From a virus, in IMG/VR virus record IMGVR_UViG_3300027833_000015, positions 89,884 through 153,883 of that record: a DNA stretch of 64,000 nucleotides, one strand, 5' to 3'. The position numbers were made by a program, and so were the translations under genes. Within the stretch, counting starts at the first letter, position 1. Every line of letters starts with the position of its first letter. A model generated the notes under the pieces. It was not told where the DNA came from, searched no databases, and saw only the letters and a list, made by a program, of their open reading frames with translations. This document shows positions 3,671 to 60,596 of this stretch, in pieces.

Positions 3671-3678
3671 ATTATCTC

Positions 3679-4678: not shown

Positions 4679-4709
4679 GTTATTCCTCGAGTGCAGACTC
4701 TATTATCGT

Positions 4710-4943: not shown

Positions 4944-4946
4944 GGT

Positions 4947-5195: not shown

Positions 5196-5197
5196 TT

Positions 5198-5452: not shown

Positions 5453-5466
5453 AATCTCTTCCTTTT

Positions 5467-5766: not shown

Positions 5767-5782
5767 ACTCACTTCCTCTTGT

Positions 5783-5863
5783 GTTCTCTCTCAACTGCAA
5801 CCATTATAGCGCGATGAGGGTACAAAGACAAAGTCTGAAAAACTGAATAGAATCAACAACTTA
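5783..5863 (-). promoter_or_regulatory. Early promoter cassette 2
   Basis: Repeat family member with -35 TTGTCT (5826-5831), 17-bp spacer and -10 TATAAT (5803-5808). It drives 5548-5766 and contains the stop of the glycan gene 5861-6487 at its upstream end. Confidence 0.88.
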
Positions 5864-7772: not shown

Positions 7773-7799
7773 AACTTATGTCTTTTCTTCGGTTTACAA

Positions 7800-7807
7800 T
7801 TATATAG
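7800..7807 (-). promoter_or_regulatory. Candidate CTATATAA promoter box
   Basis: CTATATAA on the minus strand, in the 128-bp gap before the GT25 gene at 7128-7772. The same octamer precedes genes at 15449, 16087 and 19471. It may be a variant late or middle promoter. The same gap holds an AGAGGAA/TTCCTCT inverted repeat at about 7872-7891 just after the upstream gene. Confidence 0.4.
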
Positions 7808-7900
7808 TTGTGCTGCTGTTGTCTGATTACACGGAGACAAACGGAGACCAATCATGGAACCCAATACGTTAAGAGGAATATACTTTCCTCTCCATGTGCC

Positions 7901-10439: not shown

Positions 10440-10447
10440 GGTAGTAC

Positions 10448-11233
10448 CTATATTTGACTCATTAATGTATCGACGTCTTCACCGCGATCAGGCAGTTTGT
10501 TCTTGAGGAAGAAGTGTACGAAATATGCATTAACTATGCTTTTTTCAGTCACACCATTATATAGTGCGTTGAATTTCCACTCCATATCCTGCACCTGCAA
10601 TGGGACTTTCTTCACCCACCAGTTGAGCAGGGTCTGGTCGGTCGACCATTTCCACGCACCGTCACCGTCTACAAATCGTTTGAACTCGACTCGGTTCAAG
10701 AACTCTCGAGCGTTCTGTCCTTTGAAGTGTTTGACGATTGACTTGTTCATAACAATCATGCCCATGTTATAGAACTTCGCGCCAAGGGTGTTCCATTGCC
10801 AATCAACGTCAGACAAATTGCTATACTGCATGCGCGAGTAGTTGTATATCTTCTGCGCGTACTCGGGTGTGATCGGCATTTCTCTTTCAGCACAAGCACC
10901 GAAGTCGTATGCATAACTATCAAAGTGCTCGAAGATGTTTGGCGCGTCTGGACGAATGTAGATGTCTGCGTCGATTATCGCAATGTCGTCGAATCGATAG
11001 AAGTAATCGAATGCGTTTTCTTTTTCAAAGATGGGGAGATACCCACCGTATTTCTTGTAGGATTCAGTAGACCTATTCGTGGCGAATATGTCGGGGCATA
11101 TCCGAAGGATAGGTTGACGTTGTACGATGTGTTCGATGCCATACTTCTTGCAGTAGTTGGCAACAGAATCTATGCAGTGTTCGTAGAGTTTAGACTTTGG
11201 TCCAACCGCGACTTGATATATCATTTGCTTCAT
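10448..11233 (-). CDS. GT-A glycosyltransferase
   Basis: A 261-residue glycosyltransferase with an N-terminal strand (QMIYQVAVGPKS), a DxD-type motif in AIIDADIYIRPDAPNIFE near residue 85, FYNMGMIVMNKS near residue 152 and STDQTLLNWWVKK near residue 197. These features fit a GT8-like or phage-type GT-A fold. The gene lies between the carbamoyltransferase and methyltransferase genes in the same operon. Confidence 0.7.
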   Translation of the reverse strand: MKQMIYQVAVGPKSKLYEHCIDSVANYCKKYGIEHIVQRQPILRICPDIFATNRSTESYKKYGGYLPIFEKENAFDYFYRFDDIAIIDADIYIRPDAPNIFEHFDSYAYDFGACAEREMPITPEYAQKIYNYSRMQYSNLSDVDWQWNTLGAKFYNMGMIVMNKSIVKHFKGQNAREFLNRVEFKRFVDGDGAWKWSTDQTLLNWWVKKVPLQVQDMEWKFNALYNGVTEKSIVNAYFVHFFLKNKLPDRGEDVDTLMSQI

Positions 11234-11242
11234 TTACTTCCC

Positions 11243-12781
11243 TCAAGATGTCCATACATTGACACCGTATCTCATAGTGAAATCTTTTGCATCGTGCTCA
11301 TCGTTTACCATGGGCATCCCGCGTATGTTCAGAGAAGTATTTAGCAACATCGGAACACCTGTCCTTTTGTAGTAGCATTCGATGACTTGACGAAAGACGG
11401 ACTGACAATCCTTCGGGACTAACTGTACCCTGCCTGTACCATCAACGTGGGTGACGGATTTATAGTCGTGCTTGGCAATTGCGCAGTATTGCATCCACTG
11501 ATTCATCGGTCCAGAGAAATATTCTTCTGCGTGTTCCTCGAGTATAGCAGGAGCAAACGGACGAAACTCTTGTCTCCGTTTGATTCTATTCACAGTCCCT
11601 TGTACGTCATACCGCACATCTGCTATCAGGGATCGGTTGCCGTATGCGCGTGTGCTGAACTCTGCGCGACCGTTGGCGATACCACAGACTTTATTCTTCA
11701 TCAGGTCATCAACAACTTTCTCTGGGTCAAGATCGCCTTCAATATTGTATCCCAGAAACGGACTCGTCCAGTTGAGTCGGTCAATGCCAGTGTCTTGCAT
11801 CAACTTCCAACCTGCTGCTCCCAAAGAGGCACCGCCATCTCCAGGGTTCACGTCAACCCACACATCATCAAACAACTCTTGTACGCGAGTGTTCGCCACG
11901 ATGTTTTGCGCAACGCCACCAGAGTAACACAGGTGTGTGCCGTACTTTCTCGCTTCACGCATTATATCAAGGATCATTTCCTCAACTGCGTACTGTAGTG
12001 ATGCTGCTGCATCTGGTATACTTTTACATTCTCTAATCAGCATGCTGACAATGGCGCGGAGTGGTTGCAGTTTAAACGCATACATCCGCTGCCAGTCTAT
12101 TTCTATTTTTTCTGTTGGATCTATGCCAACGGTGCATTCGAACATGTCATACACTTTCTCCCAATGAGTCGGTTCACCATAACTGGCGAGACCCATGACC
12201 ACATACTCATCCTCATTTGCCTTGAGGTTCATTTCAGGAATTTCGGTAGTGAAGAATGCGTAGAGATATCCAATTGATTTCGGAAATGTCATTTGCCAGA
12301 CAAGTTTGAGATCGGAGTTGTATATTGCAGCAGAACGATATTCTCCGACACCATCGATAACCACGGTGACGCAATCACTTCGCTTGAAGTGCTCGGGTCT
12401 GGTCATAAAGGCACCACAACCGTGGGACATATGGTGTTCGTTGGAAACTACGTTGGTTATGCTTCGGTGAAAATTCCAAGGCATGGTCTGACTGAGGACT
12501 TCGCCTGTCCACTTGTGGTGTTCCTTAACGAAACCTCTCCTGAATTCCTCACGTTTCTCCCAATCATCATTGAGTACCACCCAAATATTTGGATCTAGGT
12601 CAGCAATGATTTCGGTTCCACAGGTATCGATCCACTGTTGGGTGGGAATTAACCAGTCGTGTTTTTTCTTCGTGTAGCGTTCAGAAAGCGAGGCAAATTC
12701 TATATTGCCCTTATCATCTATGCATGTAACTCCTGCATCGTGTAGAGTAAATCCACCGACGCCCACATACTTCTTGCCCAT
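11243..12781 (-). CDS. Carbamoyltransferase, NodU/CmcH/TobZ family
   Basis: A 512-residue carbamoyltransferase, which makes carbamoyl-adenylate from carbamoyl phosphate and ATP and passes the carbamoyl group to a hydroxyl. The N-terminal domain has EHHMSHGCGAF near residue 116 (metal-binding His pair), VTVVIDGVGEYRSAAIYN near residue 140 and LCYSGGVAQNIVANTR near residue 284; the C-terminal YrdC-like domain has GRAEFSTRAYGNRSLIADVR and QEFRPFAPAILEE. Family members modify Nod factors, antibiotics and, in some phages, hydroxymethylated DNA bases. The TAATG overlap fixes the upstream junction with the holin-like gene. Confidence 0.9.
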   Translation of the reverse strand: MGKKYVGVGGFTLHDAGVTCIDDKGNIEFASLSERYTKKKHDWLIPTQQWIDTCGTEIIADLDPNIWVVLNDDWEKREEFRRGFVKEHHKWTGEVLSQTMPWNFHRSITNVVSNEHHMSHGCGAFMTRPEHFKRSDCVTVVIDGVGEYRSAAIYNSDLKLVWQMTFPKSIGYLYAFFTTEIPEMNLKANEDEYVVMGLASYGEPTHWEKVYDMFECTVGIDPTEKIEIDWQRMYAFKLQPLRAIVSMLIRECKSIPDAAASLQYAVEEMILDIMREARKYGTHLCYSGGVAQNIVANTRVQELFDDVWVDVNPGDGGASLGAAGWKLMQDTGIDRLNWTSPFLGYNIEGDLDPEKVVDDLMKNKVCGIANGRAEFSTRAYGNRSLIADVRYDVQGTVNRIKRRQEFRPFAPAILEEHAEEYFSGPMNQWMQYCAIAKHDYKSVTHVDGTGRVQLVPKDCQSVFRQVIECYYKRTGVPMLLNTSLNIRGMPMVNDEHDAKDFTMRYGVNVWTS

Positions 12782-16125: not shown

Positions 16126-17106
16126 TCACTTAACTGCCCCCCAGACGTTCTTCCAGTCTCCGCTTATCGCGCCACGAGCATAGTCTGTAGACCTGTTCTC
16201 GAAGAAGTTGGTATGTGTTGGTGCGTTGATCATTTCTTCAACCCAGAGCAGTGGATTCTTCTTAACTTTAAAGATCCCCTTCATACCCAAACTGATTAGT
16301 CGACGGTCAGCGATGTAGCGGATATACTTCTTCACTTCTTCTGATGTCAACCCTTCCATTGGACCCATTGCAAACGCAAGGTCGATAAACTTGTCTTCCA
16401 GTTCTACCATGCGCTCAGCAATTGCGTAGATCTTTCCTTTCAGGTCATCGTTCCATATCTCTAGGTTTTCTTCGATGTATGTGCGAAACAGTTTGATCAT
16501 TGACTCAGCGTGCATAGTTTCGTCGACGATAGACCAAGTGACAATCTGTCCCATGCCTTTCATCTTACCATGACGCGGAAAGTTCAGCAACATGATGAAC
16601 GAGGAGAACAACTGCATACCTTCAGTGAATGCGGAGAACGCTGCTATGTTAGTGGCCACTGTTTCTTTCGTGCCGTCATTGGCAGACAGATCCATGAAGT
16701 AGTCGTGCTTCTCGCGCATTGCCTCATACTCGAAGAATTCGTTGTACGTTGACTCGGGCATACCCAGAGTTTCGATTAGGTGCGAGTATGCAGCAACGTG
16801 CAGTGCTTCGCGTGCAGCGAAACCCATAAGCATCATGCGTACTTCAGGTTGTGGGAAGTGTGGCAGGTAGTTGTTGACATAACCACCAGCAACGTCGATG
16901 TCACCCTGCGTGAAGAAGCGAAATATGTTTGTCAGGAAACCCTTCTCTTCTGGAGTAACCTTACGCTGCCAGTCCTTGACATCTTCTGCCATAGCGACTT
17001 CTGTGTGCAACCAATGCGACTGCTCATGCTTCAACCAAGCATCATATGCCCATGGGTAATTGAATGGTTTGAAATATTCTCTTTCGTCTGTCAACTTTAA
17101 CTTCAT
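16126..17106 (-). CDS. nrdB: Ribonucleotide reductase class Ia, small subunit NrdB
   Basis: A 326-residue R2 subunit that holds the di-iron centre and tyrosyl radical used to start deoxynucleotide synthesis. Iron ligands and the radical tyrosine are visible in REALHVAAYSHLIETLG (Glu, His and Tyr at the E-xx-H-xxx-Y spacing), FTEGMQLFSSF and VDETMHAESM. The C-terminus is long enough to contact NrdA. It overlaps the 2OG oxygenase gene by ATGA and belongs to the nrdA-oxygenase-nrdB operon. Confidence 0.94.
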   Translation of the reverse strand: MKLKLTDEREYFKPFNYPWAYDAWLKHEQSHWLHTEVAMAEDVKDWQRKVTPEEKGFLTNIFRFFTQGDIDVAGGYVNNYLPHFPQPEVRMMLMGFAAREALHVAAYSHLIETLGMPESTYNEFFEYEAMREKHDYFMDLSANDGTKETVATNIAAFSAFTEGMQLFSSFIMLLNFPRHGKMKGMGQIVTWSIVDETMHAESMIKLFRTYIEENLEIWNDDLKGKIYAIAERMVELEDKFIDLAFAMGPMEGLTSEEVKKYIRYIADRRLISLGMKGIFKVKKNPLLWVEEMINAPTHTNFFENRSTDYARGAISGDWKNVWGAVK

Positions 17107-17666
17107 TCTCTTTCTTCCTTGCTTTTATCTGAAAACCATGCGACTAATACTAATCGCTCTCCTTCGTATACTTTTGAAACTCCGTGTTTCAGGTCTGGAC
17201 CATAAATCAAACTCTCGCCTACGGTCACTGGTAGAACATCTGGGGTTATCTCCCGTCCATAGGGTGGGTGTGTTTCTTCGCCTCCGTTTCTGACGCAGTA
17301 CTCGTTTGATGGTCTTGCTCTTTGGTCGTATCTTTCCATGACAAGAGAGTGGCCACCAACAAGATCGACATCGTCGAGGAGGGTGACTATGGTAAGGTCT
17401 GTGTTGTTATCATGGTGCATTCTCGTAAACGATCCTTTTACATATCGCAGAAAGTATACACCAATACAATGTTTGTGTTTAGAATATTTCATCAAAGTGT
17501 CTAAGAAACCAAACTCGAACTCATCACTAACCTTGAGATCTGCCCTTTCCATATCAAAAAGGTTATACATCTGAAACAATTTAAAGAAATCGAGACTTGC
17601 TGCCAAGTCCCTTGCATCATTCAGTTCTTCCTCAGAAAGAACATTGTCCATTATATATCCTGACAT
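17103..17666 (-). CDS. 2OG-Fe(II) dioxygenase, prolyl hydroxylase type
   Basis: A 187-residue oxygenase between nrdA and nrdB. The iron-binding facial triad is visible as HHDNNTDLTIV (His-x-Asp near residue 91) and DLKHGVSKV (His), with the 2-oxoglutarate-binding Arg in GERLVLVAWF. Such enzymes are frequent in marine T4-like phages. The ATG at 17666 has GAGG upstream and lies just after the nrdA stop; the longer frame would overlap nrdA. Substrate unknown: a protein residue or a nucleobase are both possible. Confidence 0.82.
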   Translation of the reverse strand: MSGYIMDNVLSEEELNDARDLAASLDFFKLFQMYNLFDMERADLKVSDEFEFGFLDTLMKYSKHKHCIGVYFLRYVKGSFTRMHHDNNTDLTIVTLLDDVDLVGGHSLVMERYDQRARPSNEYCVRNGGEETHPPYGREITPDVLPVTVGESLIYGPDLKHGVSKVYEGERLVLVAWFSDKSKEERE

Positions 17667-17668
17667 AC

Positions 17669-19471
17669 CTATCCCTCGCAGGCGCGACACTCGCTGTCAT
17701 CAATAACAGCAGCGAGGTCGATCTCTTTGATCACGTCACGTTCGATACGCGCACTTACTTTGTCTGCCTTGCCGAGTTTCTCAGAACGACAGTAGTACAT
17801 GGTCTTCACTCCGCGCTTCCACGCAAGGAAGTGTACCGTGTGAATGTATATGATGTTTGCATCTGGACGGAAGAACACATTGAGCGATTGTGCTTGATCG
17901 ACGTGTGCTTGTCGGTCTGCTGCATGGTCGATAATCCAACGCTGATCTATTTCCATAGCAGTTTTGAACACATCCTTCTCCTCTGGTTGCAACCAACGCA
18001 GATGTTGAACCGAACCATCGTTGGCGATAATGCTTGACCAAATTTCATCAGCATCCAGTTTGGTCGCCCCGAGTTCGATCTTGCGATCAATCAACTCAAC
18101 AAGGTGCTTATTCTTATTTAGAAATGCTCCTGAGAGGGTGTCCTGCCTGTATGCATTGGCGCGATATGGTTCAATGCTAGGCGAGGTGTTGCCCATGATG
18201 ATGCTGCTGGATGCGTTTGGTGCGATCGCCATTGTGTGACTAAATCGTTGCCCTGTGCCTTCAGCGTCAGGTGCTTCACCACGTTCCGTGCCCAACTGAA
18301 TGCTCGCCTCTGTCACTTTAGTCTTGATGTGAGAGAAGATGCGGTTGTTCAGTACCTTCGCCATAGCGCACTCGAATGGCATCGACTTCTTCTGGAGGTA
18401 TGCGTGGAAACCCAGCGCACCGATACCGATTGACCGTTCGCGCATAGCAGAGAACCTTGCTCGCTTCACTGTATCTGGCGCGTTGTCGATGAAGAACTGT
18501 AGCACGTTGTCAAGCATCTCTGCCATGTCACGCAGGAACATCGTGTTCTTGCTCCATGAGTCGTAGTGCTCAAGGTTGACAGATGACAAGCAACATACAG
18601 CAGTCCGTTCTTCGTTTGTTGGCAGGATGATCTCCGAACACAGGTTAGACTGGTGAATCTTCAGACCCAAGTCTTTCTGGAACTGAGGCATTGCTCGATT
18701 GCTTGTGTCGATATAGTGGATGTACGGTTCACCCGTTTCCATACGCAGTTCAAGTATCTTCTGCCATAGTTCTTTTGCTGAGACTGTTTCGCGAATCTCT
18801 CCGCTTGATGGGTCGGTCAGGTTCCAACCGTCATCTGCATCTTCGTCTTGCATACAGCGTTCGATAATCTCCATGAACCTATCGGAGATATTGATGCCGT
18901 GGTGCAGATTCAAGCATCGACGATTGGGGTCACCTGTCGGTTTACGCATCTCGAGGAACTCTATTACATCTGGATGACTGATGTCAAGATAAGCAGCGTA
19001 TGACCCTCGTCTTGTTTTACCTTGCCTGTACGCGAGCGAGGAGGCGTCGTATGTCTTGAGGTGTGGAATGACGCCAGTTGACTTGTCGTCTGAAGAACGG
19101 ATACCAAACCCAATACCAACACCACCACCAAACATAGACAACCAGTTTGTCTCGGATAGATTGTCGACTAATCCTTCAGCAGTATCTTCGATGTAGTTTA
19201 GGAAGCAAGAGATTGGCATCCCTTTGTTGGTGCGTCCGTATGCGAGGATTGGAGTTGAGTACGACAACCAGTGCTTTGAGGCATACTCGTAGAGTCTTTG
19301 CGCGTGTTCAGGATTGGAAGAGAAGGTCTTTGAAACAAAAGCGAATCTTTGTTGCGGAGAAGATTCATCTTCTCGCATATACGATTCTTTTAGTCTTGCC
19401 AGACCGAGAGGGTCAAAAAGTTCGTCACGTGTTATATCAATCTCGATACCGAGATAAGTTTCTTTAGGCAC
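17669..19471 (-). CDS. nrdA: Ribonucleotide reductase class Ia, large subunit NrdA
   Basis: A 600-residue catalytic subunit, shorter than the roughly 760 residues of the bacterial enzyme because the N-terminal ATP-cone is missing, so dATP feedback inhibition is probably absent. Active-site elements are present: MPISCFLNYIED (reducible Cys), QSNLCSEIILP (Asn-x-Cys-x-Glu with the thiyl-radical Cys), TAVCCLSSVNL (partner Cys), KTMYYCRSEKL (radical-transfer Tyr pair) and a C-terminal CRACEG swivel pair. The start is a GTG with AAGGAA upstream and a CTATATAA box before it. Confidence 0.94.
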   Translation of the reverse strand: MPKETYLGIEIDITRDELFDPLGLARLKESYMREDESSPQQRFAFVSKTFSSNPEHAQRLYEYASKHWLSYSTPILAYGRTNKGMPISCFLNYIEDTAEGLVDNLSETNWLSMFGGGVGIGFGIRSSDDKSTGVIPHLKTYDASSLAYRQGKTRRGSYAAYLDISHPDVIEFLEMRKPTGDPNRRCLNLHHGINISDRFMEIIERCMQDEDADDGWNLTDPSSGEIRETVSAKELWQKILELRMETGEPYIHYIDTSNRAMPQFQKDLGLKIHQSNLCSEIILPTNEERTAVCCLSSVNLEHYDSWSKNTMFLRDMAEMLDNVLQFFIDNAPDTVKRARFSAMRERSIGIGALGFHAYLQKKSMPFECAMAKVLNNRIFSHIKTKVTEASIQLGTERGEAPDAEGTGQRFSHTMAIAPNASSSIIMGNTSPSIEPYRANAYRQDTLSGAFLNKNKHLVELIDRKIELGATKLDADEIWSSIIANDGSVQHLRWLQPEEKDVFKTAMEIDQRWIIDHAADRQAHVDQAQSLNVFFRPDANIIYIHTVHFLAWKRGVKTMYYCRSEKLGKADKVSARIERDVIKEIDLAAVIDDSECRACEG

Positions 19472-25867: not shown

Positions 25868-28843
25868 TTACTTCATTCCTCTCAGTGCTTTGGTCATCAA
25901 CACGACGAACTTACGCTTGTCGACAGGTTTCTGTATAGCATCATGCTTCTTCAGAAGAGCATCGATCTTACCTTTGCTCAACGCCACAGTACGAGTTGGC
26001 GAGACGAGAACATCGCCAGTTTTGTCGCCATGGTTCATAGAGTCTTGCGCGATACGGAGTTGCATGATGATGTTACGATCAGAAGCATCAGCAGAACCTT
26101 TGTGGGTTTTGCCCTTGGCAGTCTTTGTAGTAGTCTTCGCCTTTGGTGCTGCTTTCTTCGCTTTCTTCTCTGCTGCAACTGCTGCTTGTGCCTTTGCTTT
26201 CAGAGCGCGGAACTCTGGACCACGTGGTATGTTCTTTGGACCACCAACCATATCTTGCATCTTCTTGACTACAACATCAGACAGTGCTTCGTTGACTTTG
26301 CCCCAGTTACCTGAGATTGAATCTGTCATAGTATCTTCTCCAAGTGATTTCTTTTTCTTCCTCAGCGCGACCAGTTTTTCGAGGTAGTGCTTACGCTGCC
26401 AGTGCTGGTCTGCTTGTGTTGGGTTCATTGGTCGTCTTTTGTGATCTGCCTGACCCTGTTTGATTTCTTGGGTAGTGTCTTTGATTTCACGGTTGACCTC
26501 TTTCATAGACCACTTTGGGTTTATATTGAGGACTAACTTTCTGCCTTCTTCAACTTGCCTGAAAGATTCGTTTTTCTGTTCTTTCTTTGCGTCATCGTAT
26601 GCGCGTCTTGCTACCTGTTTGATTATCTTGCCTATGGCATGTGTAGTTTGACGTTGCGTTGAAGACATATCGTCCCCGTACACTATTTTGCCCTGCTCCT
26701 TCGCCTTTTTTTCTCCCTTGTTAAAACGAGGGTTTTGGCCAAGATTCCTCTTCTCTCCACTGGCCATTGTTCTTATATAACCTTTCTGTAGAGTTCCGAG
26801 TTTCGCTGCCACCTTTGCATCAACTGTCTTGAAAACATACTTATCAAGTTTGTCTCGACCACCTTGTTTAAATGCAGCAACGCCATCTTTCCTGACGAAG
26901 ACGACAGACCTGACGATCTTATCAAACTCGGGGTCTGCTTCCATTGCCATACGAATTTGATCTTCTAGTGCTTTGTCTTTCGCTTTTCTCTTATTTTTCT
27001 TGGTTGGTATTGCGGCACCGACAGCAACAATAAAATCACGAATATCGTTCAACACGCCTTCATCAACTTGCTCGACAGATTCCATTCGACCTTGTACCTT
27101 ATTCGTTGTATAACTACCAACCTTGGTAGTCTTATTTGCGTTGTCAGCATACTTCTTTGCTGCTGATGCTGATTTGAAATTCTTTGAAGACGAATCTGCT
27201 TTGCCTTTCTCGTCGCGGAACTGGACGGAGAAATATGCTTCTTCAACTTGCTCAACAGATTCTTTGACACCCTTATACTTCTTTATTCCTTTTGCTACTT
27301 CCTTCTTCGCAGCGGTTTTACTAGAAATCCTCTCGATTTGTTGTATTGCACTTTGGTAAAAATTACTATCATATCTACTGAGAGTTTTTGGGAGTCCTCC
27401 AGATTTCTTGAGGTAGTGGTTTATGGTGTCTTTTGCATCATCAAGTAGTTCTGGTTCTTTCTCTTTTCGCGCTTGCGAACGATCCGCATCGTTCTGTTTA
27501 CGGATACGCATAACGGACGACCTTGTTGGTCCCCAAGTATTGAGACCGTGCACGCCACCGCCACGCGTGGACTCATCAACTTGCTGGACTGCTTCCCTGA
27601 TGCTGACGTTTGGTGCAGGGTGTACGCTCGCAGACGGGTGGATCTCGATGAACTTTTCTCTGCCCGTCTCCATGTCCATTATCCTGCCTACAAAATCTTC
27701 GTCATTGTTATCTCTACCCAGTTCAACATAGACAAAATACTTCTTTCCAACCAGTTCGACGGAAAGTCTTACGATCTTCTTCTTCTTTGACTTCGCCAGT
27801 TTGAATATGTTAGTCACGACTCGTTTTACTTTTGCTGGTAAGTCGTCTTTGGACAGATAATTAGAAGATGCTTCGAGAACCTGCTGGTATGACTCAGTAG
27901 ATGCGACCTTCGCTGTACCAGTCTGCTTCTTGAGTCCTAACTTGATTCCTTTCTCTCGCTTGGCGCGGAGTTTAGAATCGCCTCTGGTCTTTGCATCGTC
28001 AGACTGATGCATAGACTTCGACAAGTAGTTGTGGACTTTGTCGTTTGACAACTCATCCAACTTGCTTGATTCTTTAGGGACACAATTCGGTACGGTCTTA
28101 CCACCTTTCTTCTTGGTGCCTACCTGCTTGTGCGAGTCCCAACATGCTTCTGTTTGGACATCTTGGTGTGCGGGAACCATCTTGACACCAGTAGTGCCAT
28201 CTGGTTTCTTGAATTTTACTGGTTTCTTTGCAGAAGAATTTGGGTCACCTGCGTCTTCAGATACCCGATCATTCTCGCGCTCTTGCTTCTTGGCGAGTCG
28301 AACCTTTTGATTCGCGTGTCGCAGTTTCATTCTTGCTGAGTCCTTTTCTGATTTGGCGTTTTCGACAGATTCCTTTTGCAGTTCCGAACTTTGCATTCTA
28401 TGCGATACGAGCGAGGAATTATCTGCGAGACTAACACCATGAATGCCTTTCTTAGCAAGACCAGTCGCAGTACGATTGACTTTAACTTTCTTTCCATGTA
28501 ACTCATGACCTTTCTTGTTCACTACACGAGTTGATCCCATCGGGTGTGGGTTCTTTGCTTCATCAACTTGCTCGACAGATTCGTTCTTGCTGTGTGTCCA
28601 ACCTCTTGCCTTCAATACAAGGTGGGTCGCTTTGCTATCTGCGCGCTTCGTCTCGCCTGTGTCTGGATGGAACATATCATGGGGTACAAACTCGTCAGCA
28701 GACTCATACCTGTTCGAGTGCTTGCTGTAACCACGCTTGTCGTCTTTCTTACGGTCGCGTTGGACAGTTGCCTTGTTGAAAGTTCTCATGTGTTTCGCAA
28801 CTGGGTTGCCTTTGTTTGACGGTGGTGTGCTTTTATCTTTCAT
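25868..28843 (-). CDS. Giant lysine-rich repeat protein C (internal head protein candidate)
   Basis: A 991-residue, very basic protein built of short domains separated by ESVEQVDE-type motifs (near residues 89, 159, 259, 530 and 590, with degenerate copies near 320, 415, 760 and 845). Between them are distinct modules: a Cys block with KGGKTVPNCVPKESS near 245; a strand-rich module KKIVRLSVELVGKKYFVYVE near 340; AYFSVQFRDEKGK near 540; and a conserved block after 590. The upstream 28840-29028 frame holds the capsid-targeting peptide, and a 41-bp repeat at the junction suggests the two were once one gene. Confidence 0.7.
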   Translation of the reverse strand: MKDKSTPPSNKGNPVAKHMRTFNKATVQRDRKKDDKRGYSKHSNRYESADEFVPHDMFHPDTGETKRADSKATHLVLKARGWTHSKNESVEQVDEAKNPHPMGSTRVVNKKGHELHGKKVKVNRTATGLAKKGIHGVSLADNSSLVSHRMQSSELQKESVENAKSEKDSARMKLRHANQKVRLAKKQERENDRVSEDAGDPNSSAKKPVKFKKPDGTTGVKMVPAHQDVQTEACWDSHKQVGTKKKGGKTVPNCVPKESSKLDELSNDKVHNYLSKSMHQSDDAKTRGDSKLRAKREKGIKLGLKKQTGTAKVASTESYQQVLEASSNYLSKDDLPAKVKRVVTNIFKLAKSKKKKIVRLSVELVGKKYFVYVELGRDNNDEDFVGRIMDMETGREKFIEIHPSASVHPAPNVSIREAVQQVDESTRGGGVHGLNTWGPTRSSVMRIRKQNDADRSQARKEKEPELLDDAKDTINHYLKKSGGLPKTLSRYDSNFYQSAIQQIERISSKTAAKKEVAKGIKKYKGVKESVEQVEEAYFSVQFRDEKGKADSSSKNFKSASAAKKYADNANKTTKVGSYTTNKVQGRMESVEQVDEGVLNDIRDFIVAVGAAIPTKKNKRKAKDKALEDQIRMAMEADPEFDKIVRSVVFVRKDGVAAFKQGGRDKLDKYVFKTVDAKVAAKLGTLQKGYIRTMASGEKRNLGQNPRFNKGEKKAKEQGKIVYGDDMSSTQRQTTHAIGKIIKQVARRAYDDAKKEQKNESFRQVEEGRKLVLNINPKWSMKEVNREIKDTTQEIKQGQADHKRRPMNPTQADQHWQRKHYLEKLVALRKKKKSLGEDTMTDSISGNWGKVNEALSDVVVKKMQDMVGGPKNIPRGPEFRALKAKAQAAVAAEKKAKKAAPKAKTTTKTAKGKTHKGSADASDRNIIMQLRIAQDSMNHGDKTGDVLVSPTRTVALSKGKIDALLKKHDAIQKPVDKRKFVVLMTKALRGMK

Positions 28844-28856
28844 GGGTTGCCTTTGT
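28802..28856 (-). repeat. Direct repeat (14 bp, period 41) at the split start of protein C
   Basis: ACAAAGGCAACCCA occurs at 28856-28843 and again at 28815-28802 on the minus strand. The first copy ends the small upstream frame in Lys-Gly-Asn-Pro-stop, the second continues protein C in Lys-Gly-Asn-Pro-Val. Removing one 41-base unit would join both into one frame. Confidence 0.75.
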
Positions 28857-29028
28857 AATTTAGTGTAACTTCTTTACCCTGATATGTTGCTTCGGTGAAC
28901 TCTTTAAACGACTTCATGCCCGTCTCATTTGGCGTCAACTTCTTTGCTCGACGAACAGAGGCATCCGTGCCCCACTCATGCTTACATGGATCATACTGAT
29001 CTGATTTCTTGTCCGTCTTTTTTCGCAT
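28840..29028 (-). CDS. Short frame carrying a capsid-targeting peptide, upstream of protein C
   Basis: A 62-residue frame. Its first part (KHEWGTDASVRRAKKLTPNE) looks like a C-terminal module seen in marine phage internal proteins, and from Met38 it reads MKSFKEFTEATYQGK, a capsid-targeting peptide with a likely cut after Glu. It ends at TGA overlapping the protein C start (ATGA). Translation may begin at 29028 or at the ATG at 28917. It may be the detached N-terminus of protein C. Confidence 0.6.
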   Translation of the reverse strand: MRKKTDKKSDQYDPCKHEWGTDASVRRAKKLTPNETGMKSFKEFTEATYQGKEVTLNYKGNP

Positions 29029-29178
29029 TTATCTTAACTTCTTCAACTCAAGTTCGTGGTGCTTGACTTTCTTCTTATCGAAGAACCGTGTACCCTTCAA
29101 GGCATGCAGTTTCATAAGAGCATCTTGATGAAACTTCTTATCTTCTTTGCCCTCATTAAACTCTCTGAACCTTATCAT
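29029..29178 (-). CDS. Small basic capsid-targeted protein
   Basis: A 49-residue protein starting MIRFREFNEGK, another capsid-targeting-like peptide, followed by a Lys/His-rich helix (KLHALKGTRFFDKKKVKHHE). The stop is directly followed by the next ATG. A TATAAATA late promoter lies about 25 bases upstream. Probably a small DNA-condensing internal protein. Confidence 0.65.
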   Translation of the reverse strand: MIRFREFNEGKEDKKFHQDALMKLHALKGTRFFDKKKVKHHELELKKLR

Positions 29179-29202
29179 ACTACACCTTTATTGTTGTGGT
29201 TG

Positions 29203-29210
29203 TATTTATA
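29203..29210 (-). promoter_or_regulatory. T4-type late promoter
   Basis: Exact TATAAATA on the minus strand (within TATATATAAATA), about 25 bases upstream of the 29029-29178 gene; it heads the repeat protein C/spanin operon. Confidence 0.8.
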
Positions 29211-29214
29211 TATA

Positions 29215-29391
29215 CTAATCATCAACATACTGTTCTGGGAATTGTGCTCGATGAGCGAGATTCATGAGTTCCTCAGTAGTAAATTGTTGTACGGGTGTGT
29301 CATCGGGATAGGAAACGACGGTCATATCATTCAAACCGAACGCTGCGCTTCCTATTATTACCCATCCAAAACCTGCTGGTCTAGTTATCAT
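29215..29391 (-). CDS. Small virion-associated protein
   Basis: A 58-residue protein (MITRPAGFGWVIIGSAAFGL...) whose ATG overlaps the stop of the adhesin-like gene (ATGA). A glycine-rich hydrophobic N-terminus and acidic C-terminus are visible. It may be a chaperone or partner of the upstream fibre-like protein. No family recognised. Confidence 0.55.
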   Translation of the reverse strand: MITRPAGFGWVIIGSAAFGLNDMTVVSYPDDTPVQQFTTEELMNLAHRAQFPEQYVDD

Positions 29392-30485
29392 GCTGTGCCT
29401 CCGTCGGCAATAATCCAACCATAAGTGTCCACCAGCGTCTGTCGCGCTGCTGCTGCTGCGCCACCAGCAGTATATGTACTGCCACCAAACTTTACGTTAT
29501 CTACATCAAACGGTGCTTGCGCTGCCCATGCAATTAACAAGGCATCGTATGTTGCGGTCGACATTTTTGCGGGTGCATCAAGAAAGCGATTGTCGAGAGA
29601 ATTAGAACTATTTAAAGATGATATATCCCATGTCTCTATTCCAGAAAGGTCGACAATATTGTCGAGATCTCTAAACATACTATTCATAGACTCTGCACTC
29701 GATGTATCAAGATTCGACACATCTACAGTAGTTAATGCTGACGGTGCGAGCGAGGATCTAAAGAATGCGTTAAAATTTGTGATGCCACTTGTGTCAAATC
29801 CAGAACCAGAAAAGTCGACATTGACTAACAGAGGGCAGTCGCGTAAAAATTCTTGCATTTTGTTTCCAACCATATTCATCGTAGTTGAACCTACGGTGAA
29901 GTCTGTTAGGTTACTGCAACCCTTGAATCCTCTTTTCAGGTTTCTCCAGTTTACATTACCCAACTGAAGAACCTTCTTGATTTTATCTTTGCTTACGGCA
30001 TTGCCACCAAATCCGAGTCCTGGAAAACTTCCTGTAATGCGAACAGTATACTCGCCAGCAGTAGCATAAGTGTGTGTAAGACCAGAATCATTGAATGCGG
30101 TTACTGTTGTGTTGGCAGTACCGTCACCCCAATCAATGACTGCATTGACTGTTCCTATATTTCCTCCTATACTGGACATATCACATGGCCATGTAATACT
30201 TTCTCCGTCTGCTGTAGTTTCCCATAAAGTTTTGAATGATAGGTCGGGGTCGACCTCATCATATAATGCGCCTTGAGCATCCCAGAAATTCTTGCTGAGT
30301 TCGCCCATGTCTTCGCTCGTAGAACCCTTCCTTCGAACTCGGGTGTACGTTGAGAATATGCCGTTGACACGAATGCCGCCAGATTGTTTTAACCACAAAG
30401 GGCGCATTCTACTCTTTGGTCCTGGATCTACAGGTGAGTCGTTATACTCCCAATGGGGATTATTTGGGATGTCTCTCCACGCCAT
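29388..30485 (-). CDS. Fibre/adhesin-like protein with PKD-like and BspA-type repeats
   Basis: A 365-residue protein. The N-terminal 75 residues (WRDIPNNPHWEYNDSP, then SGGIRVNGIF) look like a virion attachment module. A PKD-like domain follows (VIDWGDGTANTT, then HTYATAGEYTVRI, residues 115-155), then BspA/DUF285-type leucine-rich repeats (GCSNLTDFTV, NVDFSGSGFDTSGITNF, TTVDVSNLDTSSAESM), residues 185-315. Such domains bind surface molecules, so this is a candidate receptor-binding or head-decorating protein. A late promoter lies about 40 bases upstream. Confidence 0.68.
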   Translation of the reverse strand: MAWRDIPNNPHWEYNDSPVDPGPKSRMRPLWLKQSGGIRVNGIFSTYTRVRRKGSTSEDMGELSKNFWDAQGALYDEVDPDLSFKTLWETTADGESITWPCDMSSIGGNIGTVNAVIDWGDGTANTTVTAFNDSGLTHTYATAGEYTVRITGSFPGLGFGGNAVSKDKIKKVLQLGNVNWRNLKRGFKGCSNLTDFTVGSTTMNMVGNKMQEFLRDCPLLVNVDFSGSGFDTSGITNFNAFFRSSLAPSALTTVDVSNLDTSSAESMNSMFRDLDNIVDLSGIETWDISSLNSSNSLDNRFLDAPAKMSTATYDALLIAWAAQAPFDVDNVKFGGSTYTAGGAAAAARQTLVDTYGWIIADGGTA

Positions 30486-50040: not shown

Positions 50041-50613
50041 CTACGCTCCTGTGTATTCAGCGACGAGTCGCCAGTTGTTGTATTCTGAATCGCTCCAGAT
50101 GTTGACTAGATTGTCATCTGCGTTGAGTTCTTCTTGGAACTCGTCGAATGTAACATCACGCAAACAGCGTGGTTTTCTCGAGGTGTGGCGATATGCCATC
50201 AGTCGAATACCTTTGGTATCAAACATCCTGTTCCATATAGACTGACCACCACGGGACTGGACTGACCCAGAAATAATATTAATGCCTGTTGCTCGCATCA
50301 CTGCGCGGTACAATTTCGGTGCCAGTCCATATCCGTTGTACAATCCACCAATCTCAACCATGGTGACTGAGTAGAACTGTCTACGCTCATAGTCGCCATA
50401 CTCTTCTTCGAGGGTCAATGACAGAACCATATCGCCTTTGTTGCCGCTGTCGTCTCGGATATATCCCGACACAAACATCTCACGACCAATGTGACATGCA
50501 AACAATTCAATCTTACCCACTTTGGCGATTCGGGAAATGCCTTCATCCCGATCGATTCTGCTCATATTTGTTTTGCCTAATCGCCCAGTCTTGGTGATGC
50601 TACATTTTTCCAT
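50041..50613 (-). CDS. GNAT-like acetyltransferase
   Basis: A 190-residue protein with a GNAT-type core: strands before VEIGGLYNGYGLAPKLYRAV (acetyl-CoA-binding pattern Gly-x-Gly-x-Ala) near residue 90, followed by INIISGSVQSRGGQSIWNRM. Similar phage proteins of the same form are uncharacterised N-acetyltransferases, possibly modifying host proteins. The start overlaps the end of the upstream gene by 14 bases. Confidence 0.6.
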   Translation of the reverse strand: MEKCSITKTGRLGKTNMSRIDRDEGISRIAKVGKIELFACHIGREMFVSGYIRDDSGNKGDMVLSLTLEEEYGDYERRQFYSVTMVEIGGLYNGYGLAPKLYRAVMRATGINIISGSVQSRGGQSIWNRMFDTKGIRLMAYRHTSRKPRCLRDVTFDEFQEELNADDNLVNIWSDSEYNNWRLVAEYTGA

Positions 50614-51934: not shown

Positions 51935-52066
51935 TTACGGGATTTCTATACTGTGTCTTTGGAGACTGGTGGGTTTGGGCACACCATTTGTCGCCCATGC
52001 CATGATGGTGAGACTCAGTGGTATCATTATCGCTGCTGCGATGACTATCCTTTTTGTTTCGTTCAT
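51935..52066 (-). CDS. Tiny membrane protein
   Basis: A 43-residue protein (MNETKRIVIAAAIMIPLSLT...) with one membrane segment, residues 7-25. The ATG overlaps the oxygenase stop (ATGA), and its TAA lies just before cassette 9. Longer frames in this region are not supported. Confidence 0.58.
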   Translation of the reverse strand: MNETKRIVIAAAIMIPLSLTIMAWATNGVPKPTSLQRHSIEIP

Positions 52067-52641
52067 AGGTAATTCCACGATATTGCGATTCTGCTTCTCT
52101 CGGGTGGCACACGCTCTTGTCTTCGTACCATGTGTTCTAACCATGGTGGCCAAACGTTCATCTGACCAGTCTCGGGTTGATGCGGAAACTGCACCTTGTC
52201 CGTCGGCACCCATGGTTCACCCAATTGAACATGAACAAATGCAGGGTGTCTGTACATTATCACAGCAGAGTCTTCATCTGCATATGGATAATATGTACCT
52301 GCTACCATGGAATGAGGATGACAGTGAAGTCCATGGTCATCGTTTTCATTGTATACAGAATACCAATACTTGACTCTGCCAAACATCATTTCACTAGGAG
52401 CATTGCGCGACTCAAGAAACTGTTTTGATGCCATGAGCATACATTCTTCCATTTCTTTGCAAAACGGTTGACCCTGTGCCATAGAGTCATTAAATCTCTG
52501 GTCATGAAATGAGGTGTAGTGGTTGTAGTCGTCCAGTCTGTCTCGAACATAATCTTCGATTGCCATGTGAGGCAGGTCTGCGACACTGAACTGCATAGGC
52601 GTGGCGAATAGTGACAGGTTCTTCGTTTCAGATAAACTCAA
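52063..52641 (-). CDS. Putative 2OG-Fe(II) oxygenase (TIGR02466 type)
   Basis: A 192-residue oxygenase with LHCHPHSMVAGTYYP near residue 104 (iron-binding His and the conserved Ser/Tyr-Tyr), the PPWLEHMV block (His) near residue 165, and SRIAISWNYL at the end (Arg for 2-oxoglutarate). This matches the TIGR02466/PF13759 family common in marine phages. ATGA overlap with the upstream RHH gene. Confidence 0.82.
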   Translation of the reverse strand: MSLSETKNLSLFATPMQFSVADLPHMAIEDYVRDRLDDYNHYTSFHDQRFNDSMAQGQPFCKEMEECMLMASKQFLESRNAPSEMMFGRVKYWYSVYNENDDHGLHCHPHSMVAGTYYPYADEDSAVIMYRHPAFVHVQLGEPWVPTDKVQFPHQPETGQMNVWPPWLEHMVRRQERVPPERSRIAISWNYL

Positions 52642-56270: not shown

Positions 56271-56354
56271 GGTTTCTCTCTCAACTTGCAACCATTATAG
56301 CGCGAGGGAGGCACAAAGGCAAAGTCTAAAAAAGTGAATAGAATCAATGACTTA
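56271..56354 (-). promoter_or_regulatory. Early promoter cassette 11
   Basis: -35 TTGCCT (56317-56322), 17-bp spacer, -10 TATAAT (56294-56299). Lies just after the tRNA gene in the direction of transcription. Confidence 0.86.
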
Positions 56355-56387: not shown

Positions 56388-56464
56388 TGGTCGGGGATGG
56401 AGGATTTGAACCTCCGACCTCATGCTCCCAAAGCATGCGCACTACCAAACTGTGCTAATCCCCG
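56388..56464 (-). tRNA. tRNA-Pro(UGG) with encoded CCA
   Basis: A complete cloverleaf on the minus strand. The acceptor stem pairs CGGGGAT with ATCCCCG (7 bp), the T-arm has GGAGG-TTCAAAT-CCTCC, and the anticodon loop CTTTGGGAG presents anticodon TGG, which reads CCA/CCG proline codons. A discriminator A and CCA end (56391-56388) are encoded. It lies between the asparagine-synthetase-like gene and early cassette 11. Confidence 0.93.
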
Positions 56465-56473
56465 TGGTGTTAT

Positions 56474-57874
56474 CTATATGTTTTGTCTCAGGTCGGACTC
56501 AACGGTTGCTTCTTGTGAGGTCGTGTATAGAAGTTTGTCTTCGCCCAAACTGTTGCAACGTCTTGGGGTGGTGAAGTTATATCCATACATATCCAATATC
56601 GCCATTTGTACTGGTGCTTCCATCGCATTAGTCTGCAACCAATCATTCCGACCTTTCATAAACTCGTGGAATATTCTCCTGTCATTGTATATCGAGGAAG
56701 ACATAATATCCATGTTGGCAGAGATGGCACGATTGTATAACCTTGGTGAACAAACCCTCGCCAGAGTATCTACGATCCACTTGTGAGGAACTTCGTGCAG
56801 GCGACACATAACCTTGTCAATGTATTTGTGGAACACTTCCTCGGCATTCTCCTCATCGTTCCGATATGCAGAACCATACATGCCACTCTTGGAGCAGATA
56901 TCCATCTTAACCATATTCTCCATGTGCTGAGTGTTGTCGGAATAGTATTTTAAAATCAATACAAGCACATGGTGGAGTAGGTCTCTCACGAACATCTCAT
57001 TACCATTTGAACCATACATAAGAATATCGGGCAACCTTTCTTGCATCTTAAGATGTTTGTATGTGGGTATGCATGCTTGCTGTCGGCAAGAAGAGTCAAC
57101 CAAATGGTTTAGACATTCCTGATAATCATCTTTTGAATGGTATGTGTAGTGGTGCGTATTAGGAAAGTTGCTTTGTGCTCGCTTCAGATACTCATGCTGG
57201 TTTTTTGATTTGCACGTGTCGAGACCATAGAGCAGTTGAAGGTCTTCGCGAAAAAACAATGACTGCAATGCAGAGTCCAACCCGTCACTGAGCGAGCAGT
57301 ACCGTAGTGGATACTTCTCTTTGATCACTTCTGAGTGATCCTTCATGCATTGGTGTATGTATTCGGTCAGTCCTTCAACGTCTTGCCAGACCTCTTGTGC
57401 GAGGGCATCTTTGGCGTCTTGATGATAATTGTAGAGAGGATTGAATATGACGACGTGATCGTAGAAAGTTGTGCACTCGGCATTAGAATGTTCTTGGTCG
57501 TGTCGATCGCCATAGAGATCTGTCCTAACAAGGTCTGTCTCTTCAATTGTCATATAGGGGAGATGGTTGGTGATTTCTATCCCATATTTTTCAGATATAA
57601 ACAGTTTGTGGTTTTGGAAATAGTCGACTGACAGATCATAATTATTTTTTGTCAGTTTAACTGCAAAGAAGTTTCCATTCGCTTCCCTGAAACTAAAGTT
57701 CGAACAAACTTCTTCTATGTCTCCTTCAATCAAATATCCGCAATAGAGGACAATGTGGTCTGCGAATTTCCATATCTCAACTTTGTCGTCTCGAATAAAA
57801 TACCAGTCGCCATAGTTCTCAACGTGTTGTTGTTTAGTGAACTTGGATTTGTCTTTGCATATAAAAAACTTCAT
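56474..57874 (-). CDS. Asparagine synthetase/beta-lactam synthetase-like adenylating enzyme
   Basis: A 466-residue protein. The ATP-pyrophosphatase P-loop appears as RYCSLSDGLDSALQSLFFRE near residue 197 (Ser-Asp-Gly-Leu-Asp-Ser in place of Ser-Gly-Gly-Leu-Asp-Ser), with a later block DILMYGSNGNEMFVRDLL near residue 288 matching the conserved Gly-x-Gly/Asp region of AsnB-type enzymes. The N-terminal 150 residues resemble a degenerate class II glutaminase domain without the catalytic Cys2. It follows an acyl carrier protein and an oxygenase-like gene, so it may form an amide or cyclise a carrier-bound acid. Confidence 0.72.
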   Translation of the reverse strand: MKFFICKDKSKFTKQQHVENYGDWYFIRDDKVEIWKFADHIVLYCGYLIEGDIEEVCSNFSFREANGNFFAVKLTKNNYDLSVDYFQNHKLFISEKYGIEITNHLPYMTIEETDLVRTDLYGDRHDQEHSNAECTTFYDHVVIFNPLYNYHQDAKDALAQEVWQDVEGLTEYIHQCMKDHSEVIKEKYPLRYCSLSDGLDSALQSLFFREDLQLLYGLDTCKSKNQHEYLKRAQSNFPNTHHYTYHSKDDYQECLNHLVDSSCRQQACIPTYKHLKMQERLPDILMYGSNGNEMFVRDLLHHVLVLILKYYSDNTQHMENMVKMDICSKSGMYGSAYRNDEENAEEVFHKYIDKVMCRLHEVPHKWIVDTLARVCSPRLYNRAISANMDIMSSSIYNDRRIFHEFMKGRNDWLQTNAMEAPVQMAILDMYGYNFTTPRRCNSLGEDKLLYTTSQEATVESDLRQNI

Positions 57875-57878
57875 AGTA

Positions 57879-58562
57879 TCACCAGAAGGTTACTATCTCG
57901 TGCGCGTGTACAGCGCAATGTATCTGGAAGGTTATCCGTGACTCTCCATCGAGGCAGACAACATTGCCAATGGCATGCTGAGTCATACCACCCCAGTGTC
58001 CCAGCATGCCCACGGTGTAGTCCAGATGGCGGTCAACTCCCTGATCGTCCTGCCATTTCAGACCAGTGGGGGTGGATGGTAATACAATCGGAACAACATA
58101 CGAATCTATTTCAATGCCACGCAACTCTTCTATCTTGTATATGTCGCGGTGGTATACGTTCTTCCTCGCCTGATGCGCGTCAAGCGAATCAGAACTCCGC
58201 TCACGTTCATCAAGATTAGCATCGTCCATGTATCCACCTGTGTAGAGTGGACCATTGAATATATGGAATCCAGGATAATTTAGATTGGGACTGAATCGTA
58301 TTGGTCTGGAGTATCGCTCTCCAAGAGTTTCGAAGAGTTTGGCATATAACCATGAGAACTCCTCCATCATAAATGGTTTCGTGCTCTGGAGGACTTGGAC
58401 GCCCCGAGTGGTGGCAATGGCGGCACTCATGGGGAGCATACACATCTCCCTCTTTCCCGCATACATTGGTTCCCAATACTCTTCCAGTCGGTGTAGTGAC
58501 TCCAAGATTTCTTCTATCTCTTCGGGGCACAACCAACTATCAGATAATACAGAGGGATACAT
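57879..58562 (-). CDS. Probable Fe(II)/2OG-type oxygenase next to an acyl carrier protein
   Basis: A 227-residue protein. YHRDIYKIEEL near residue 138 (His-x-Asp), the segment MLGHWGGMTQHAIGNV near residue 186 (His) and SRITFQIHC near residue 210 (Arg) have the order and spacing of the iron- and 2-oxoglutarate-binding residues in jelly-roll dioxygenases. No close family recognised. The ATG directly follows the acyl carrier protein stop with no gap, so the two are probably co-translated; a carrier-bound substrate is a reasonable guess. Confidence 0.55.
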   Translation of the reverse strand: MYPSVLSDSWLCPEEIEEILESLHRLEEYWEPMYAGKREMCMLPMSAAIATTRGVQVLQSTKPFMMEEFSWLYAKLFETLGERYSRPIRFSPNLNYPGFHIFNGPLYTGGYMDDANLDERERSSDSLDAHQARKNVYHRDIYKIEELRGIEIDSYVVPIVLPSTPTGLKWQDDQGVDRHLDYTVGMLGHWGGMTQHAIGNVVCLDGESRITFQIHCAVHAHEIVTFW

Positions 58563-58784
58563 CTATGGGTTGATGATCATCTCGATAAACTCATCCATTC
58601 CTTTCACAGACTCAATGTCGTTGAGTGGGATGGATATGTCGAGTTCGTCTTCTATGTCCATGATGAGATCCATCATAGACAGCGAGTCAATCTCGTTGAA
58701 CTCCTGCTGGGAATTCTCTTCCATGTGTTCATTAATGACCTGCACGATTCTTTCTCGTACAACTCGCTCAATTCTTGTCTTCAT
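58563..58784 (-). CDS. Acyl carrier protein
   Basis: A 73-residue acyl/peptidyl carrier protein. The phosphopantetheine attachment serine is in EIDSLSMMDLIMDIEDEL near residue 33 (Asp-Ser-Leu), followed by the acidic helix and IPLNDIESVKGMDEF helix of the four-helix bundle. It would need a host phosphopantetheinyl transferase. An ACP in a phage early region is unusual; the next two genes encode an oxygenase-like and an AsnB-like enzyme. Confidence 0.85.
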   Translation of the reverse strand: MKTRIERVVRERIVQVINEHMEENSQQEFNEIDSLSMMDLIMDIEDELDISIPLNDIESVKGMDEFIEMIINP

Positions 58785-59038
58785 GAGTGCCTCTCATACA
58801 CATATACATCATACCGAGTGGCATTATTTAGTCCACCCTCTATGTTCCCGCACCAGTCATACTTTGACCCGTCAGCAGGAACTCTTCCTCGTAGCAGTAC
58901 GCGCAGTCGGGTTGGTATGCCCATCTGTTTGTGCTGCTTGTTTGTCCACTTGATCCGTTCTCTCAGTTCCAACACAGCAGGGTCATTCCTGTCATGCGTT
59001 GTCAACCTGTGGGAATCGCTGCGTTTGTTCTCGCTCAT
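58781..59038 (-). CDS. Small basic protein
   Basis: An 85-residue protein (MSENKRSDSHRLTTHDRNDP...) with a C-terminal segment RVPADGSKYDWCGNIEGGLN. ATGA overlaps on both sides. No function recognised. Confidence 0.6.
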   Translation of the reverse strand: MSENKRSDSHRLTTHDRNDPAVLELRERIKWTNKQHKQMGIPTRLRVLLRGRVPADGSKYDWCGNIEGGLNNATRYDVYVYERHS

Positions 59039-60132
59039 AGATCGTCTCTCCACTGCAATGCTATCGGCAATTGCGGTATGTTATCCTTGGACATATTGTG
59101 AAACTTGACAGTCAGCATATTGCCAACCAACAGGTCTCTCTCAATCCACTGGTCATCTTTCTGTTGCATGGTTCCATTTGCTGTGACGTTGAACTTCGCG
59201 CCATCTTCGGTCTCGCATATCCACACGGGAACCTGAAACATCTCATCGCCTCGGATGTAGGGTTTGCCCTCTTCATATCCGACGACCTTGAACTCAGCGT
59301 CATGAAACTCTTTGACCTTGAGTAGTTTGCGAGACCGTTTGTCTGTCCCGTATCCGTCAGTGCCAAAGCGCAACATCGTGCCCTCGTATCCTGCCTCACG
59401 CCATTTCTTGTGAAGCATCGTCACCTCTTCCATATCGTATACATCGTATGTGGGGTTGACAACAATCTTCGGATGGAACTCATGGTATCCTTCCTCAAAG
59501 TCCTTAGTCCTCTCAGAGAAAGATGCATTCTCGTCCACAACATCATAGATGTGGTACTCGACCTGCTCGGACTCGGGAGTCAACTTCTTGATGAGGGATC
59601 CCAATTCCTGTAGCGTCTTGCCATGCAGATACAACTCACCGTCGAGGTGTAGACCCTGACGGTCTGATGCATTGATAGCATCAACGATGTGAGGCAGATT
59701 GATCACCTTGCCCGAGCGAGAGTATAGAACACCATCGACAAACAATGCACGATGACCGTCCAACTTGGGTTGAACGTATGCGGTGTTCCACTCAATGCTC
59801 TCTGGTTTGACCTTATCCAGCGATGTCGCCAGCATGGGTTTCTTCAGACCAAGCGCATTGGTTGCTGGTGCAACTGCTGCCTTCTTTGTCTTGACATACC
59901 CTTTGTCAATCTTACGCTTCGACTTGCTGACGTTCTCGAGCACTGCCTGTTCTTCGGGAGTGGTCTCATTCGACCGTCCGACGTTCTTCCCCTTGGCAGT
60001 GTACTGAGTCGTGACCCAACTTCCACCAAGTTTAGTGACGGAGGAACTGAAGACAACTGCACCTTCAGTCCAACCCTCCCACGAACCAACGGACTTGCCG
60101 TGATTCTTGAACAGTGTGATCTTATTCGCCAT
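59035..60132 (-). CDS. ATP-dependent DNA ligase with WGR-like N-terminus
   Basis: A 365-residue ligase. The adenylation motif is YVQPKLDGHRALFV near residue 118 (Lys-Leu-Asp-Gly), motif III is LHLDGELYLHG, motif IV GYEGTMLRFG and motif V SRKLLKVKEFHD, with an OB-fold domain in the last 90 residues. The N-terminal 75 residues (LFKNHGKSVGSWEGWTEGA...) look like a WGR-type domain. It seals nicks in phage DNA replication and repair. Confidence 0.92.
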   Translation of the reverse strand: MANKITLFKNHGKSVGSWEGWTEGAVVFSSSVTKLGGSWVTTQYTAKGKNVGRSNETTPEEQAVLENVSKSKRKIDKGYVKTKKAAVAPATNALGLKKPMLATSLDKVKPESIEWNTAYVQPKLDGHRALFVDGVLYSRSGKVINLPHIVDAINASDRQGLHLDGELYLHGKTLQELGSLIKKLTPESEQVEYHIYDVVDENASFSERTKDFEEGYHEFHPKIVVNPTYDVYDMEEVTMLHKKWREAGYEGTMLRFGTDGYGTDKRSRKLLKVKEFHDAEFKVVGYEEGKPYIRGDEMFQVPVWICETEDGAKFNVTANGTMQQKDDQWIERDLLVGNMLTVKFHNMSKDNIPQLPIALQWRDDL

Positions 60133-60505: not shown

Positions 60506-60516
60506 TTTTACTTCCT

Positions 60517-60596
60517 CTCTTCTCAACGAACAACTATTATCCTACAATCGAGGGACAAAGACAAAGTCTAAAATCCCTATACAAATCAACAACTTA
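60517..60596 (-). promoter_or_regulatory. Early promoter cassette 12 (GATAAT subtype)
   Basis: -35 TTGTCT (60559-60564), 17-bp spacer, -10 GATAAT (60536-60541). Drives the ligase/ACP operon. Confidence 0.85.

Follow-up and report, generated by a model that had tools for sequence, protein, structure and literature searches.

Carboxylate adenylation followed by amide formation is the established chemistry of AsnB, beta-lactam synthetase and CmoY. In beta-lactam synthetase and CarA, the glutaminase domain has no activity. Related enzymes and carrier proteins have been reported from phages. CmoY of Synechococcus phage S-B43 is an AsnB homologue that ligates 5-carboxymethylcytosine in DNA to glycine (PMC12783734), acyl carrier proteins (ACPs) of unclear role occur in several phage isolates (PMC5463345, PMC10152775, PMC3037559), and Fe(II)/2OG oxygenases are numerous in cyanophages (PMC3037559).

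The window, the whole 64,000-nucleotide stretch of DNA that was analysed (bases 89884-153883 of a virus record totalling 153,883 bases), encodes an ACP, an Fe(II)/2OG oxygenase-like protein and an AsnB-like protein in succession. A preliminary description had interpreted this trio as a biosynthetic unit and knew of no described phage system of the kind. The latter statement has to be qualified, as CmoY (PMC12783734) and stand-alone phage ACPs had already been described. Our preferred reading, which we hold at a probability of roughly 60%, is that the AsnB-like protein is a divergent AsnB-fold, ATP-dependent (AMP-forming) amide ligase, carried as phage cargo and newly placed beside the ACP and the oxygenase.

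The likeness to described systems is partial. With AsnB (1ct9) and human ASNS, the window family shares the two-domain fold and the order of the SGGxDS, SGEGSDE-like and PFLD-like motifs, whereas it lacks Cys2 and sequence-profile similarity and has a shorter N-terminal domain. Beta-lactam synthetase (1jgt/1mc1) and CarA (1q15/1q19) have the AsnB fold predicted for the window family and, as expected for that family too, an inactive glutaminase domain; however, their biosynthetic cluster has no counterpart at this locus, their Tyr/Glu catalytic pair could not be mapped onto the family, and the YGxNG(D/N)E motif is specific to the window family. CmoY is a phage AsnB-type amide ligase that does not depend on glutamine, as proposed here for the window family, yet SpCmoY comprises 271 aa without an N-domain, whereas the window protein comprises 466 aa with one, and CmoY is coupled to CmoX and CmoA, neither of which the window phage has. 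The window ACP is small and carries an Asp-Ser-Leu site, like those of vB_EliS-R6L (ORF32), R16F (ORF117), P-HM1/P-HM2 and phrog_5934, but its neighbours differ from those reported for known phage ACPs, and P-HM1/P-HM2 also encode an ACP synthase, whereas the window phage encodes none. The oxygenase-like protein has the HxD...H...R set of cyanophage Fe(II)/2OG oxygenases; unlike the known phage enzymes, it lies below Pfam detection and belongs to a small family of its own, nearest to phrog_24927.

Gene layout, carrier protein and oxygenase-like protein

The locus is arranged as follows, in the direction of transcription:

60515-60591, minus strand: 77-nt promoter-like repeat (TTGTCT-17-GATAAT), intergenic, upstream of the unit
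59035-60132, minus strand: ATP-dependent DNA ligase gene (phrog_114)
58781-59053, minus strand: gene for a 90-aa protein with no assigned function
58563-58784, minus strand: ACP gene (73 aa)
57879-58562, minus strand: Fe(II)/2OG oxygenase-like gene (227 aa)
56474-57874, minus strand: AsnB-fold ligase-like gene (466 aa)
56388-56464, minus strand: tRNA-Pro (TGG), immediately downstream of the AsnB-like gene
56273-56349, minus strand: 77-nt promoter-like repeat (TTGCCT-17-TATAAT), downstream of the unit

The three genes are adjacent with minimal spacing, as first described, and all lie on the minus strand: the gap is 0 nt between the ACP and oxygenase-like genes and 4 nt between the oxygenase-like and AsnB-like genes. 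The stop of the 90-aa gene overlaps the start of the ACP gene by 4 nt, and the 90-aa gene also overlaps the DNA ligase gene. Since promoter-like repeats flank this unit and no further copy lies between those at 60515 and 56273, the trio and the DNA ligase gene probably form one shared transcription unit. Copies of this intergenic repeat, which is approximately 77 nt long and whose TATAAT/GATAAT box reads on the minus strand, are spread over the window at 5517, 5830, 38915, 50922, 51265, 51850, 56024, 56273, 60515, 61511 and 62176.

The ACP matched PF00550 with 25.6 bits against a cut-off of 20.8, and its attachment site, D33-S34-L35, is intact, with Ser34 lying within NEIDSLSMMDLIMDIEDEL. On this profile match and this site, the earlier assignment as an ACP with an Asp-Ser-Leu site is genuine. 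Neither a phosphopantetheinyl transferase (PF01648) nor an AMP-binding ACP-loading enzyme (PF00501) was detected in the phage genome; therefore, priming and loading of the ACP would need the host. Two related phages (G052 and G053), whose DNA ligase is approximately 70% identical to that of the window phage, encode an ACP relative with 37% identity over 51 aa. There, the ACP gene follows a GNAT-like gene and stands by itself, neighboured by neither an oxygenase nor an AsnB-like gene. The stand-alone ACP of G053 lies at L118 7100-7312, and the preceding GNAT-like gene is homologous to window 50041-50613.

For the oxygenase-like protein, the sole match was phrog_24927 (E 9e-8), to which no function is assigned; neither Pfam nor a PDB profile search gave a match. 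The family has three further members, which are 25-27% identical to the window protein, and one relative matches WelO5 (E 0.017). H138-x-D140, H196 and R209 are invariant in 4/4 known members of the family, an HxD...H...R arrangement that corresponds to the Fe(II)/2OG oxygenase layout, so that this motif upholds the class first proposed as probable, although a Pfam match is absent. Halogenases of that oxygenase family have Gly or Ala in place of the HxD aspartate; a halogenase reading was rejected because the aspartate is retained here. In one contig (L027), the neighbours of the same-family oxygenase are a QueC-like PP-loop protein, a CxxCxxCC protein and a second 2OG oxygenase. Another relative lies on a contig (L025) whose dense cargo region (304-10696) encodes a fatty-acid desaturase, several further oxygenases, a sulfotransferase-like protein and three different PP-loop proteins, one of which may have a GNAT domain. 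None of the three contigs with oxygenase relatives (L024, L025, L027) carries a member of the AsnB-like family. Further 2OG oxygenase-like proteins are encoded at window 52063-52641 and 17103-17690, the latter between ribonucleotide reductase (RNR)-region genes.

Fold, motifs and distribution of the AsnB-like family

Sequence comparison alone gave no annotation for the AsnB-like protein. The 466-aa sequence matched no Pfam, PHROG, NCBIfam or PADLOC model, its PDB sequence-profile search gave no match, PF00733 matched none of the 37 family members, and profile comparisons of the family with E. coli AsnB, SpCmoY (hhalign probability 0.5%) and an L025 PP-loop protein showed no similarity. An anti-phage defence protein was considered and rejected because there was no PADLOC match. 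Scans of viral contigs yielded 62 loci, from which 37 distinct near-full-length sequences were aligned. The AlphaFold model built from this alignment (pLDDT 85.6, pTM 0.89) superseded an earlier, poor one from 10 sequences (pLDDT 59). When the model was compared with the PDB by Foldseek, 23 chains matched at E<=1e-3, every one of them an asparagine, beta-lactam or carbapenam synthetase or the hydroxyamidotransferase TsnB9; TM-scores were moderate (0.45-0.57) and the full-length rmsd was high. The next fold class, NAD synthetase, appeared from E 4e-3. In BFVD, asparagine synthases from Achromobacter phage Motura and from giant viruses are among the closest structures. Judged on the predicted model, the comparison is unambiguous, and the protein has the AsnB fold.

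The motifs agree with the fold. The PP loop, S196-D/E-G198-x-D200-S201, is invariant in 37/37 aligned sequences, as are D283, Y287-G288-x-N290, E293 and D398, and the order PP loop, YGxNG(D/N)E and NDRR follows that of the AsnB motifs SGGxDS, SGEGSDE and PFLD. The AsnB-like identity and Ser-x-Gly-x-Asp-Ser loop noted at the outset are thus confirmed by fold comparison and an invariant loop, although no profile match accompanies them. The N-terminal glutaminase-like domain is degenerate, and the C-terminal domain is a PP-loop synthetase. At residue 2, all 37 sequences have Lys or Arg and none has Cys; therefore, the glutaminase nucleophile (Cys2) is absent from the family. Fold and motifs together suggest ligase activity, in which the C-terminal domain would adenylate a carboxylate and an amine would then attack to form an amide. 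The amine would not come from glutamine through the protein's own N-terminal domain, because the catalytic cysteine is missing in all relatives. Position 424, which is Arg or Lys in 35/36 relatives and Met in the window copy, is probably the catalytic Lys position, being paired by K-x-x-L spacing with the AsnB lysine, K430 of the E. coli sequence numbered from Met1. Degenerate active sites had been named as grounds for abandoning the biosynthetic interpretation; the PP loop and the HxD/H/R set are intact, and the departure concerns Met424 of the window ligase.

Evolutionary constraint on the family is evident. Nine AsnB-like pairs show dN/dS values of 0.09-0.33, indicating purifying selection, and a chance ORF is therefore excluded; for the window copy and its sister, dN/dS is about 0.15 with dS near saturation. 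Among the 37 distinct relatives, 29 have a gene for a CxxCxxCC protein immediately upstream of the AsnB-like gene, and in 22 the two genes overlap by 4 nt. PF03692 matches these neighbours above the cut-off in three contigs, with a weak match in one more. The AsnB-like gene would thus normally be translationally coupled to a protein of metal or Fe-S cluster type. On the family tree, absence of this neighbour requires 3 changes. The window sequence and L005 cluster together (100/99), and the branch of the window copy is longer than its sister's (0.43 vs 0.27). The window gene has lost the CxxCxxCC neighbour and now stands behind the ACP and oxygenase-like genes. A CxxCxxCC protein is still encoded at another place in the window phage (genome bases 1205-1669).

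The genomic context of the family is variable. The gene lies in the RNR region (L007 and similar), among neck genes (L002), among other genes (L030-L040) or, in the window phage, between DNA ligase and tRNA-Pro genes. In the window phage, the counterparts of the genes that flank the RNR-region and neck-gene copies directly adjoin each other, and no AsnB-like gene separates them. Given this and the variety of places, the gene is probably mobile cargo that has entered the genomes of marine tailed phages at a number of unrelated sites. L004 was rejected as a separate sister locus, being of the L002 type and carrying frameshifts. Searches by tblastn found no isolate relatives for any trio protein or for distant members of the AsnB-like family, and a pattern scan of GTDB genomes, of limited sensitivity, confirmed no bacterial relatives. 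McjC-type lasso-peptide cyclases are also AsnB homologues and are coupled to a precursor peptide and a B protease; inspection by eye recognised no such genes beside the family.

Several nearby genes were recorded in passing. In one group, a B12-binding radical SAM-like protein, recognised by eye, is encoded two genes downstream of the AsnB-like gene (L040 10095-11810, L031 10065-11708, L033 10062-11684). In the RNR-region group, genes downstream of it encode small basic proteins that are conserved and share a T-x-S-V-x-G-(A/T)-G-D-(D/N) motif (L011 12031-12198, L072 10610-10921, L073 9519-9665). A fatty-acid-desaturase-like histidine-box protein is encoded a few genes upstream in L018 (7008-7745), with no Pfam match at E 0.01.

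Taken as a family, these predicted AsnB-fold, glutaminase-dead amide ligases are new, previously unlabelled and widespread in marine viruses. They lie below the reach of profiles, occur in dozens of marine viral contigs and are repeatedly coupled to a cysteine-cluster protein, a pattern that points to an additional amide-forming reaction in ocean phages. CmoY provides a precedent for such ligases bringing new chemistry to phage DNA; without the CmoX/CmoA context, candidate targets of the family are another base, a lipid, a protein or a metabolite.

Competing explanations for the trio

Conservation across phages, proposed in the preliminary description as a check on the trio, failed. The ACP occurs in 0/50 searched contigs, nearly all of which hold AsnB-family relatives. 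The closest relative by DNA ligase gene, a 99-kb contig (L103) with 87% ligase identity, has homologues of the 90-aa gene upstream of the DNA ligase and of another window gene adjoining its ligase gene; the fetched stretch around it contains no ACP, oxygenase, AsnB-like or tRNA-Pro gene, and no AsnB-family gene occurs anywhere on the contig. The trio was therefore rejected as a conserved system, being seen in one genome only among the contigs searched, and is probably a single combination, recently formed. Of the proposed biosynthetic unit, the protein classes and a probable shared transcription unit stand, whereas the combination is confined to one genome.

This outcome bears directly on a carrier-based pathway, in which a host phosphopantetheinyl transferase would prime the phage ACP, a host enzyme would load it, the oxygenase would hydroxylate the bound substrate and the ligase would close an amide or lactam, the product being a small molecule or a lipid or protein modification. 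The near-absence of spacing and the probable common transcription are consistent with this scheme, as are the intact ACP serine and oxygenase motif, the beta-lactam and carbapenam synthetases among the nearest folds, and the QueC-like PP-loop protein, 2OG oxygenase and CxxCxxCC protein that adjoin the same-family oxygenase in L027. However, the ACP is separable in related phages, the phage has no detectable loading enzyme or phosphopantetheinyl transferase, and the window ligase carries Met424. Together with the restriction to one genome, these points make the pathway unlikely, and we give the same low probability to the ACP and oxygenase supplying the ligase in the window phage; they may simply have been inserted together with it. 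The fuller proposal, that ACP-tethered hydroxylation and amide or lactam formation serve a small molecule or host lipid or protein modification early in infection, is distinctly improbable. Met424 could instead signal a ligase that is decaying or repurposed, with lowered activity, and an ACP with a role of its own, such as a decoy that diverts the partners of the host ACP. The longer branch and the lost CxxCxxCC neighbour are compatible with decay, and the stand-alone ACPs of G052/G053 and the described phage ACPs of unclear function (PMC5463345) are compatible with independent action. Nevertheless, the ORF is full length, every other motif is intact, the comparison with the sister copy indicates constraint despite near-saturated dS, and the equivalence of position 424 to the AsnB lysine comes from spacing rather than a solved structure; we therefore consider this explanation rather doubtful.

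A role in DNA hypermodification is likewise distinctly improbable. The ligase would either be of CmoY type or belong to the ADDT cluster of the phage, amidating a modified base. In its favour, CmoY acts on DNA (PMC12783734), the trio is co-located with a DNA ligase gene, and the window phage has an ADDT cluster (L089 7870-10743, record bases 26870-29743) that encodes a P-loop kinase, an amino acid:DNA transferase (PF18724), a GNAT-like protein and a stand-alone class-II glutamine amidotransferase beginning MCGVIGV. This separate glutaminase was missed by a GATase_6 genome search and found by hmmscan. However, neither the window phage nor any of 20 related contigs (21 records in all) encodes a C5-methyltransferase (PF00145) or CmoA (TIGR00740), and SpCmoY, lacking the N-domain, is not profile-alignable with the family, so a CmoY/5cxmC pathway is disfavoured. 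ADDT occurs in only 2/33 searched records, the window phage being one; its presence in a single other record argues against this modification as the general target of the AsnB-like family. The preferred reading, a divergent amide ligase carried as cargo, accommodates both the constraint on the family and its changing neighbours. Four points weigh against it: the lack of a profile link to AsnB, the moderate TM-scores with high rmsd, Met424 in the window copy, and the failure of the GTDB pattern scan, itself of limited sensitivity, to reveal a bacterial relative that might have indicated a pathway. Elsewhere in the window, a surface-sugar type gene cluster was noted at 5861-12781, with a NodU-family carbamoyltransferase at 11243-12781.
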